NCBI GenBank assembly: GCA_013297655.1
Contig: JAAFHV010000037.1
Coordinates: 1 to 48,380 of the forward strand
DNA length: 48,380 bases
From: Myxococcales bacterium
GTDB lineage: Bacteria; Myxococcota_A; Polyangia; Polyangiales; Polyangiaceae
Direction of reading: 5' to 3'
Below, one piece after another: positions 5,846 to 9,366 of the stretch. Every line of letters begins with the position of its first letter. Position 1 is the stretch's first letter. The position numbers were made by a program, and so were the translations under genes. The notes under the pieces were generated by a model. That model did no database searches, was not told the DNA's origin, and was given only the letters and a program-made list of their open reading frames with translations.

Positions 5846-7120
5846 GTGCTAGCCCATGGGCCCATGGCCTCGCCTCGACTGAGATCGCTCCAACACCTCG
5901 ACACACGCGCCGTCGCGCTCCCGCACGGGACGGAGGTGACGACCCGTGTGGAGCGTGTGGTCGGCGAGCGGCGAGTGCCGCAAGGGTCGGTCGGTCGCGT
6001 GACCAAGATCGAAGGCGATGCGGTGGACGTCACGTTGGTGGGCGTCGGGGTCGTTCGTTATGCCCGCGACGAGGTGATCCCGCGGCGGGTAGGACAGGCC
6101 CTTTACGCCGTTCGGCGCGCCGATGCGTGGCAGCTCCTGCGCCCGTGCGTGGTGCTGGAGAGCACCGTTGGGTCGCGCGCGTGGGGCCTCGCGGACGAGG
6201 GCTCCGACACCGACTTGCGCGGCGTATTTGCCTATCCGTTCACCCTCACCACCGGCCTCGTGGAGCCCCCCGAGGACCTGGTGAGCGAGGACGGGAGCGC
6301 TACGTATTGGAACGCGAAAAAAGCGATGATGCAGGCGCTGCGGGCGGACCCCAACACGCTCGAGATGCTCTTTTTGCCGAACGCGCGGGCGTGCGATCCG
6401 ATCGGGGAGTGGCTCTTGGCGGAGCGCGACGCGTTCGTGTCGCGCGAGATCCACGGTACGTTCGGGCGCTACGCGCTGGGGCAGCTTCGTAGGCTGTCGC
6501 AAGGTATGCGCCTCCACGAGCATCGCAGCCTGTTGCTCGGGTGGCTGCGCGAAGATCCGTCGCTCGACTTGGACACCGTGGCGGGCAAGCTCGCCGATCG
6601 TTCGGCCCGCGAGTATCCGTCGCGTAAAGACGCCGTCGCGCAGGCGAAAGAGCACGTAAAGCAACTCTACCGATCTCTCTGCGACCAGGGGCTGCTCCCG
6701 GAGAGCACGTTCGTCGCGCTCGTCGCGTTCGCGGGGGCGGGCGCGGCCGACCTCGAGCTCTCGCGCGAGCTGCGACCGAAGAACGCGTACAACCTGCTTC
6801 GCCTCTTGGCCCTCGCCACGTCGTGGCTCGCGGAGGGCACTCCCACCTTCGAGGCCAAAGGGGCATTCCGCGAAAGGCTGCTCGCGATAAAACGAGGGCA
6901 AGTGGAGCTCGATACGATCTTGGCGGAGGCGGAGGCGATGGTGCCCATGTTGGAAGCCGCAAGAGAGAGCTCCAAGCTCCCCGAGCGGGCCGACATCGGC
7001 AGGGTCGACAAGCTCCTTCGCCGCGTGAACGAGGAGGTCGCGCGGAGGTTCGCGAACGCGGTAGACGGGCCCTTCGGCGCCGGCGCCCCCGAAGCCCCGA
7101 TCGCGGAGTGGGCCGATTGA
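5846..7120 (+). CDS. RlaP-like (COG3541-type) predicted nucleotidyltransferase, long paralogue
   Basis: A 424-residue protein of the polymerase-beta nucleotidyltransferase superfamily, resembling the RlaP/YcgL group (PF10127) linked in other bacteria to RNA repair. The active-site signature is at residues 109-125 (GSRAWGLADEGSDTDLRGV, acidic pair D121/D123). Residues about 20-85 form a separate small beta-rich domain not present in the shorter paralogue. The helical C-terminal half continues past residue 250 (YRSLCDQGLLP, ELRPKNAYNLLRLLA). GTG at 5846 is preferred because GGAGGG lies 9 nt upstream; ATG at 5864 is the alternative. A second family member starts at 8563, with a divergent metzincin gene between. 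Target RNA or protein unknown. Confidence 0.8.
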   Translation: MLAHGPMASPRLRSLQHLDTRAVALPHGTEVTTRVERVVGERRVPQGSVGRVTKIEGDAVDVTLVGVGVVRYARDEVIPRRVGQALYAVRRADAWQLLRPCVVLESTVGSRAWGLADEGSDTDLRGVFAYPFTLTTGLVEPPEDLVSEDGSATYWNAKKAMMQALRADPNTLEMLFLPNARACDPIGEWLLAERDAFVSREIHGTFGRYALGQLRRLSQGMRLHEHRSLLLGWLREDPSLDLDTVAGKLADRSAREYPSRKDAVAQAKEHVKQLYRSLCDQGLLPESTFVALVAFAGAGAADLELSRELRPKNAYNLLRLLALATSWLAEGTPTFEAKGAFRERLLAIKRGQVELDTILAEAEAMVPMLEAARESSKLPERADIGRVDKLLRRVNEEVARRFANAVDGPFGAGAPEAPIAEWAD

Positions 7121-7144
7121 GTCGCCGCGGGACGCGCGAAATGG

Positions 7145-8347
7145 CTACTTGTGGAGCCCTTCGCGGGTGAGCTTGGTGAGCGTCTCGCACTCGCCGATCG
7201 CGCGATCGTAGGCAAACGCCGCCATCGCGACGCGGCACTTGAGGTCTTGCACCGTGAAGCTCTTCCCGCGGCTCGCGAAGAGGGCCTTCCCCGCTTCCCA
7301 CGCGGCGGCGGGCTCGTGCTTGGTGAGCAGCGCCTCGACGCGTCGATACGTATCCCGGTCGCCCGCGGCGAGCTCGCGGAGGTCTTCGTCGGTCGCGGGA
7401 GGTGCCGTGTTCGCGTTCGCGCTCGAGCTGGTGTCGGCGCTCGCGACCGTGGGCGAGGGAGAAGGGGAGGGGGCAGTCGTGGGGGCGCGAAGGCTCGTGA
7501 GGAGTGCACGCATCTCGTCGCGGTCTTTGGCGACGAAGTCTCCACCGGAGCCGACCTTGTCGAGCGAGGCGAGGAGATCGCGCGCGAGCTCGCTGGAGCT
7601 TGCTTCTTTGGCGGCCCGGTGTCGAAGCGTGATTTCGACGAGCGCGGCGTTCTGGGGGCTGAAGCCGCTTCGTTCGTTGGCGTAGGCGGGGTTCATCACG
7701 CTCGGCGCGGCGTCGTCGTGGATGGCGCCGAGGGTGTGGCCTATCTCGTGGAGCAGCAGCGCGGCGGCGCGGTGCTTTCGGCGCCCTTTCACGAGGCCTT
7801 CGCGCTCTTCGGCCGAGAGCTCGTCGAGGTTGCGTTCGATCGCGTCGACCTCGTCGGCGCGGGCAGGGGCGCGGAGCACGAGGTGATGCCCGAGCAACGT
7901 GGCGTAGCCGAGCTCGTGGAACGACGCGCTCGCGCGGGGGAGCGAGCCGAGGAGCCCCACGTGGAGATCGAGCGGGCCCGCCTTTTCTTTGGACTCGAGC
8001 GCGGCGAGGGCGGTCTCGACGCGGTCCTCCGCGGTTTCCCATGCCGCGAACGAGTCGACCCGAAAGGTGACACCGAGACCCGAAAAAACGCGATTGACCT
8101 CGTTCACTGCTTCTTGGAACTGGCGCGGCGCATCGACCACTTGCGCCGTGTAGCGCGGAGTGGCGAGCACGTGCACCGAGATGGTGACGGGAGTGACGGC
8201 GCCGGTGGAGGCGATTCGTTCGAGCTGCGGAGGGGCGGCGCGCACCATCGCGCGCTGTTGTTCGCCTTTTGCCTCGCCCCACTGCGAATTGAAGCACGCC
8301 ATCGTGAGGAGAAAGAAGGTACTCCCGAGGACGTGCCGCGCGCGCAT
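7145..8347 (-). CDS. metzincin-type zinc metalloprotease lipoprotein
   Basis: A 400-residue predicted exported lipoprotein (lipobox LTMAC, Cys18). The zinc site is a full metzincin signature HExxHxxGxxH at residues 200-210 (HEIGHTLGAIH), with a Met-turn SVMNP at about 217-221. Matrixin/archaelysin-like folds share this layout. Residues about 305-345 form a low-complexity P/S/T/A linker before a helical C-terminal region of about 55 residues. ATG at 8347 is chosen because the longer open frame to 8545 merely translates the 25-bp tandem repeats and lacks a signal peptide. It lies between two nucleotidyltransferase paralogues, in the opposite direction. Substrate unknown. Confidence 0.87.
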   Translation of the reverse strand: MRARHVLGSTFFLLTMACFNSQWGEAKGEQQRAMVRAAPPQLERIASTGAVTPVTISVHVLATPRYTAQVVDAPRQFQEAVNEVNRVFSGLGVTFRVDSFAAWETAEDRVETALAALESKEKAGPLDLHVGLLGSLPRASASFHELGYATLLGHHLVLRAPARADEVDAIERNLDELSAEEREGLVKGRRKHRAAALLLHEIGHTLGAIHDDAAPSVMNPAYANERSGFSPQNAALVEITLRHRAAKEASSSELARDLLASLDKVGSGGDFVAKDRDEMRALLTSLRAPTTAPSPSPSPTVASADTSSSANANTAPPATDEDLRELAAGDRDTYRRVEALLTKHEPAAAWEAGKALFASRGKSFTVQDLKCRVAMAAFAYDRAIGECETLTKLTREGLHK

Positions 8348-8404
8348 GGCAAGGAGCCTATCGCGGACGACGAACGATTGCGCGCGAAGTTTGGAGTCAC
8401 GTGA

Positions 8405-8479
8405 GGCTCGCGCCTCCAGAGCGACGTTCGGCTCGCGCCTCCAGAGCGACGTTCGGCTCGCGCCGCCAGAGCGACGCGA
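8405..8479 (+). repeat. three tandem 25-bp repeats
   Basis: Units at 8405-8429, 8430-8454 and 8455-8479; the first two are identical (GGCTCGCGCCTCCAGAGCGA plus CGTTC). The third differs by one base in the core (GCCGCC) and at the end (CGCGA), and a fourth partial unit starts at 8480. A single copy recurs at 1057-1081. The array separates the divergent metzincin and nucleotidyltransferase genes, so it sits in their shared promoter region. Confidence 0.9.
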
Positions 8480-8562
8480 GGCTCGTCGAGTGCACGGGAG
8501 CGCGACGTTCGGCGCGCGCGGCCCCTTGCGTCGCGGTGGGGGCATGCAAGAAGCTATGGGCC

Positions 8563-9366
8563 ATGCACACCGTCGAACACGCGACGCTCGCGAGCCTGGT
8601 CTCGCCGCACGAAGCCACCGTCGCCGCGCGCGCCCTCGAAGAGGCGGCCTCGCGGCACGGCAATCGGCCGGTGGTGGTGCTCCTCAGTGGCGCGCACGCT
8701 TATGGGTTTCCCTCGAAGGACAGCGATCTCGACTTGAAGGGCATCCACGTCGCTCCCACGGTGTCGTTCCTCGGCTTGAATGAGGCAGTGAGCACGGTCG
8801 ATTTTACGACCGTCGTCGAAGGGGTGGAGCTCGACTACACGTCGAACGAGATTGGCCACGCGCTCCACGGGATCCTCTCCGGGAATGGCAACTTCATCGA
8901 GCGTGTTCTCGGTCGCGCGCAGGTGGTCACCTCGCCGCTGCTGGCCGAGCTCGTGCCCCTCGTGGAGCGCTCGCTGAGCCGCAGGCTGCACGCGCACTAC
9001 CGCGGGTTCTGCCTGTCGCAGCAGAAGCTCTTGGCCAAAGATCTCACCGTGAAGAAGCTGCTCTACGTCTTGCGTACGGCGCTCACGGGCATCTTCGCCC
9101 TCGAGACGGGCGCAATCGAGGCCGACCTCGGGCGCCTCGCGGAGCGGTACCCGATCCCGCGTTTGCAGGAGCTCGTGACGCGAAAGGTGACGGGCGAGAA
9201 CGTGGGACTCGGCGAAGACGAGGTGCGCGAGTTCCAACCCCACGTCGACGCGCTGATGGCGCGCCTCGACACCGCCCGTGCCTCGAGCGTGCTCCCCGAG
9301 CTGCCCCCGAACGGCGCGGAGATCGAGGCGTGGCTCGTCGCGCTGCGGGTAAAGCTTTTGCCCTGA
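8563..9366 (+). CDS. RlaP-like predicted nucleotidyltransferase, short paralogue
   Basis: A 267-residue second member of the same nucleotidyltransferase group. The signature is at residues 42-60 (SGAHAYGFPSKDSDLDLKGI, acidic pair D55/D57). The helical region following it has the family pattern HAHYRGFCLSQQKLL and VKKLLYVLRTAL. It lacks the N-terminal beta-rich domain and much of the C-terminal extension of the 5846 gene. ATG at 8563 is chosen because the longer frame back to 8401 is translated tandem repeat; the ribosome site is weak. Divergent from the metzincin gene. Both copies keep the catalytic acids, so both may be active. Confidence 0.8.
   Translation: MHTVEHATLASLVSPHEATVAARALEEAASRHGNRPVVVLLSGAHAYGFPSKDSDLDLKGIHVAPTVSFLGLNEAVSTVDFTTVVEGVELDYTSNEIGHALHGILSGNGNFIERVLGRAQVVTSPLLAELVPLVERSLSRRLHAHYRGFCLSQQKLLAKDLTVKKLLYVLRTALTGIFALETGAIEADLGRLAERYPIPRLQELVTRKVTGENVGLGEDEVREFQPHVDALMARLDTARASSVLPELPPNGAEIEAWLVALRVKLLP

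Follow-up and report, generated by a model that had tools for sequence, protein, structure and literature searches.

The two RlaP-family nucleotidyltransferases described here, termed R1 and R2, probably constitute an ancient two-gene module of RNA repair, which in this genome would act in trans with an RtcR-controlled RtcB/RtcA pathway. Both are encoded in the window, i.e., the whole stretch of 48,380 nucleotides that was analyzed (contig C301 of a 9.9 Mb Myxococcota genome), where R1, a metzincin gene and R2 were recovered as three intact reading frames. R1 (418 aa; 5864..7120, + strand) and R2 (267 aa; 8563..9366, + strand) match PF10127 with 70.6 and 81.3 bits, respectively, both above the Pfam cut-off of 23, so that the original prediction of two RlaP-like genes was confirmed, and they are the only PF10127 matches in the whole genome. 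Judging by the starts of homologues, R1 most likely begins at ATG 5864 and not at GTG 5846; R2 begins at ATG 8563, and the start listed for its open reading frame (8401) falls within an intergenic repeat. This repeat consists of tandem 25-bp copies located between the start of the protease gene and that of R2 (8393..8523, no strand assigned), and it belongs to a dispersed intergenic repeat family with 28 sites genome-wide (0 with the reversed control).

A scan of one genome per species returned 80 R2 loci from Myxococcota, Planctomycetota, Chloroflexota, Cyanobacteriota, and other phyla. R1 adjoins or is fused to R2 at 67 of these loci, 57 of which have the order R1>R2 in the same direction, and several of the remaining 13 lie at contig edges; the pair is also carried by Deinococcus plasmids. 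Where both genes occur on one contig in genomes of the window's order, they usually lie next to each other on the same strand, either overlapping or separated by a short gap (the distance is about 0.8 kb in G130). In a tree of the RlaP cores, the R1 and the R2 sequences separated into one clade each (supports 100/99 and 98/89, from 125 columns only), both clades spanning Myxococcota, Planctomycetota, Chloroflexota, Cyanobacteriota, and Deinococcus. R1 and R2 are distinct paralogues that form an ancient and widespread pair. In addition, single frames with two RlaP cores, the R2-like one followed by the R1-like one, were found in two Myxococcota (G300 and G194; L123:409-2232 and L124:409-2424). 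A tally based on Pfam only gave two PF10127 copies on one contig in 44 of the 105 genomes of the phylum among the matches listed, a figure that is too low as a measure of pairing, since R1 gives weak scores and several seemingly single-copy genomes hold both types on inspection. Some genomes have R1 with no detected R2. Apart from the rtc-linked cases described below, no flanking genes of the pair were conserved in Myxococcota beyond closely related genomes, and a search with Rfam beside the pair found tRNAs only (in L104, plus one in L247).

The predicted structures are of high confidence (pLDDT 92 for R1 and 95 for R2). Both enzymes had been described as keeping a GSxxxG...DSDxDxxG signature, which is present in R1 (GSRAWGL...SDTDLRG) and also in R2 (GAHAYGF...SDLDLKG), except that GS is GA in the latter. 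The additional N-terminal beta domain noted for one enzyme was recovered with high confidence in the R1 model as a small barrel (residues ~16-77; 5909..6094, + strand), preceding the GSRAWGL/SDTD core. It aligned with SH3, Tudor and KOW domains at Z 7-9 (in the best cases ~55 residues aligned with an rmsd of 1.1-2.5), the VIA-align matches including the N-terminal part of Hpy99I (Z 9.1), the Tudor domain of PHF1, the KOW domain of Spt5, NusG, and L21e. This barrel fold is common to many RNA- and protein-binding modules. In R2, G43 and the metal-binding carboxylates D55, D57 and D91 are kept in all 43 aligned homologues, and in R1 G103, S104, D115 and D117 are kept in 49 of 49. The R1 position in register with D91 of R2 is S145, the register being taken from secondary structure and sequence alignment and not from atomic coordinates; this third-carboxylate site holds Ser (33), Gln (5), Thr (2) or Glu (1) in 41 of the 49 homologues and Asp in the other 8. 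Loss of catalysis in R1 is put forward only as a hypothesis, because the register is not coordinate-based and because an adjacent aspartate (D143), which might substitute for the third carboxylate, is common. Shorter-type R1 proteins keep Asp at the third position, and an inactive R1 would therefore not be general.

The original prediction had suspected a link of the pair to RNA repair. This link holds, and it is seen in operons of two kinds as well as in co-occurrence with RtcR. On three Deinococcus plasmids, Hen1 is annotated ahead of two RlaP genes, with overlapping starts, and these are followed by Pnkp in two of the plasmids and by a Pnkp remnant in the third; the order Hen1-R1-R2-Pnkp recurs in a planctomycete MAG. 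The second kind was found in Myxococcota: R1-R2 lies downstream of RtcR and in the same direction in G035, G039 and G009 (all of the window's order), RtcA-RtcB facing RtcR>R1>R2 in the first two, and RtcR>R1>R2 adjoining a Ro60 gene and tRNA genes in G009. Furthermore, a Myxococcales MAG holds R1 (with the N-terminal domain), R2, RtcR, Ro60, RtcB and RtcA inside 9.4 kb. For most Myxococcota, no RNA-repair gene lies next to the pair. The statement that no RNA-repair enzyme accompanies the genes here holds for the region examined around them and fails for the genome, other contigs of which encode RtcR (C67), RtcB-RtcA (C506) and further RtcBs, four RtcB loci in total. No full Pnkp scored above the cut-off in this genome, and a strict pattern search found no -24/-12 consensus in the window.

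Several further observations were made at these loci. The Deinococcus taeanensis plasmid has kept Hen1 and both RlaP genes, and Pnkp is only a remnant there (L152:6925-7192). In G009 (L104:1-3664), eight tRNA genes flank the Ro60-like gene that adjoins R2-R1-RtcR, i.e., a tRNA array is located within an RNA-repair locus. An unnamed protein of ~230 aa with no Pfam match is encoded both in the Pnkp operon of Deinococcus ficus (L153:6711-7424) and in a myxobacterial RtcB operon (L187:6967-7641), and is possibly a further RNA-repair part. One locus (L101, in G041) was considered as a candidate for Pnkp-Hen1 beside the pair and was discarded, its Pfam matches being a beta-CASP nuclease and a PPDK-like protein.

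Of the 144 genomes surveyed in the order, 47 carry both RlaP and RtcR, 13 carry RlaP alone (i.e., no RtcR was found in 13 of the 60 RlaP-bearing genomes), 7 carry RtcR alone, and 77 carry neither. The resulting odds ratio is 40 (p 1.5e-18) and, at the level of genera, 26 (p 3.6e-8), both p values ignoring phylogeny, with genome size and genus corrected for only roughly. For GH18, an unrelated family used as a control, the odds ratio was 3.3 when paired with RlaP and 3.2 when paired with RtcR, values that show the background arising from genome size and kinship. When the genomes were divided by size, the association held in the 2-7 Mb and 7-9 Mb classes and did not reach significance at 9-14 Mb, a range in which RlaP and RtcR are both present in most genomes.

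The gene located between R1 and R2 (7145..8347, − strand) has the features announced for an exported HExxHxxGxxH protease on the opposite strand, namely a lipobox-like LTMAC, the zinc site HEIGHTLGAIH and the Met-turn SVM (SVMNP); this predicted lipoprotein metzincin just passes Reprolysin_5 (PF13688; 29.1 bits vs. a cut-off of 27). The three genes had been proposed as a possible distinct system, and its members, the secreted metzincin and the two nucleotidyltransferases, would then act together. They are adjacent in the window, and a shared control region is conceivable because the protease and R2 share a 215-bp gap, but this gap contains the dispersed repeat, and the predicted compartments are unlike (the protease exported, the RlaP proteins cytosolic). 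The survey of relatives that the proposal called for found R1 in 56 of the 144 genomes, R2 in 54, and the metzincin in 16 (window genome included); the metzincin homologues of the 15 other genomes are never beside RlaP, no fetched R1-R2 locus other than the window has a protease between or beside the two genes, and the presence of RlaP is not associated with that of the protease (p 0.11). What survives of the proposal is the RlaP pair as a conserved unit; the triplet as a single system is rejected by this survey and seems to us extremely improbable. The protease is an unrelated gene now located between R1 and R2, outside the RlaP unit, and the simplest reading of the compared loci is that it arrived inside an older R1-R2 pair. 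Such an event could also have left the window pair as a decaying remnant, its operon split by the protease and R2 drifting. R2 has a long terminal branch in the tree of cores (0.59 vs. 0.05-0.15 in close neighbours), and in G120 both R1 and R2 are broken by stops and frameshifts (L098:8178-9662), in a genome that retains RtcR and RtcB. Nevertheless, the reading frames of both window genes are open, their GC3 values (0.84 and 0.88) are coding-like and the conserved catalytic residues are kept, and we regard decay as unlikely; since R2 is off the R1 operon and has this long branch, the pair may be loosening, with R2 possibly relaxed after its separation from R1.

Other functions of the intact pair were weighed on the basis of fold and context. 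The PDB sequence search found no relative of R1 or R2, and by structure the nearest solved folds of R2 are AadA (Z 10.2, top) and HalB (Z 9.8), the latter also matching the R1 core (Z 9.1); the substrates of pol-beta nucleotidyltransferases with a similar fold are drugs, proteins or signalling nucleotides, which counts against assigning the pair to RNA. One alternative is a role in anti-phage defence, in which the pair would synthesize a second messenger (a nucleotide or an oligonucleotide), as do HalB of the Hailong system and CD-NTases, and R1 would serve as the regulatory subunit; the CARF-like sensor domain of RtcR (PMC7790460) would suit such a role. The likeness to HalB is, however, common to the entire pol-beta superfamily, the pair has no conserved effector gene as a neighbour, PADLOC and NCBIfam returned no convincing match for either protein (in PADLOC, none to defence), and the linked genes encode RNA-end enzymes, all of which make a signalling role improbable in our judgement. 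The top rank of AadA for R2 would fit, instead, the adenylylation of a protein or small molecule, as by AadA or GlnE, with the linkage to RNA repair being incidental. We give this little credence, as independent operon contexts in two RNA-repair systems together with the RtcR association are hard to get by chance.

We therefore return to RNA repair, for which the evidence points most likely to a two-subunit RNA-end nucleotidyltransferase that would feed the RtcR/RtcBA pathway, with R2 as the catalytic subunit. According to a published prediction, RlaP enzymes replace the nucleotides that an RNA has lost before it is ligated (PMC7824862). In the proposed sequence of events, a ribotoxin or RNase would cleave a tRNA or another structured RNA, and the exposed end would then lose nucleotides by trimming. 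RtcR would detect the broken RNA, leading to the induction of repair, and the R1-R2 pair would bind the damaged molecule, R1 supplying the SH3/KOW-like barrel together with a core for nucleotide binding, in which the third metal ligand is usually missing. The lost nucleotide(s) would be added by R2, whose three-carboxylate site is complete, and RtcB would then seal the RNA, a step that the Pnkp/Hen1 enzymes might perform instead in other bacteria. This model builds on family membership, conserved pairing, fusions, RNA-repair operons, the co-occurrence with RtcR, and residue conservation, from which we infer a physical complex, the division of labour, the substrate and the nucleotide added. It has to accommodate the Myxococcota pairs with no RNA-repair neighbour, the RlaP genomes with no RtcR, the R1 genes with no detected R2, and the third aspartate of shorter-type R1 proteins. 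A stricter version, in which R1-R2 is an obligate heteromer with R1 as a catalytically altered, RNA-gripping partner and R2 as the enzyme, and in which the pair is an undescribed RtcR/RtcBA component common to Pnkp/Hen1 systems, is offered tentatively and is rather less than probable. If the model is true, a nucleotide-restoring step would be added to bacterial RtcBA repair, whose substrates remain debated, and this step would account for the mending, and not merely the resealing, of RNA from which bases were lost after cleavage; because two different ligase systems reuse the pair, it can be tested directly as a general part of RNA repair.

Comparison with known systems places part of these findings on familiar ground, as the link between RlaP and RNA ligases is already known. 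No description of the fixed R1/R2 pairing, the R1 barrel, the asymmetric active sites or the tie to RtcR in Myxococcota was found in the literature searched, which did not extend to the main RlaP paper (10.1093/nar/gkw722), and an earlier description of the tandem pair could exist. With the RlaP family (PF10127, "RNA repair pathway DNA polymerase beta family", i.e., RNA-ligase-associated pol-beta nucleotidyltransferases), R1 and R2 share membership above the cut-off, the link to RNA-repair enzymes and the predicted restoring role; they differ in the presence of two fixed paralogues, separable into R1 and R2, in the SH3/KOW-like domain of myxobacterial R1, in the third carboxylate missing from most R1, and in that the Myxococcota pair usually does not adjoin a ligase. 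HalB and AadA resemble them in having a pol-beta core with a helical domain by fold comparison, but lack a sequence match and have a different genomic context. The bacterial Pnkp/Hen1 system is joined to the pair in the Deinococcus plasmids and the planctomycete MAG through the Hen1-R1-R2-Pnkp order, unlike in the window genome, where no full Pnkp scored above the cut-off. Finally, the RtcR-RtcB-RtcA (rsr-yrlBA-rtcBA) operon as described has no nucleotidyltransferase pair (PMC7790460) and its parts are on separate contigs in the window genome, whereas in several Myxococcota the genes for RtcR, RtcB, RtcA and Ro60 adjoin the pair, with which they also co-occur.
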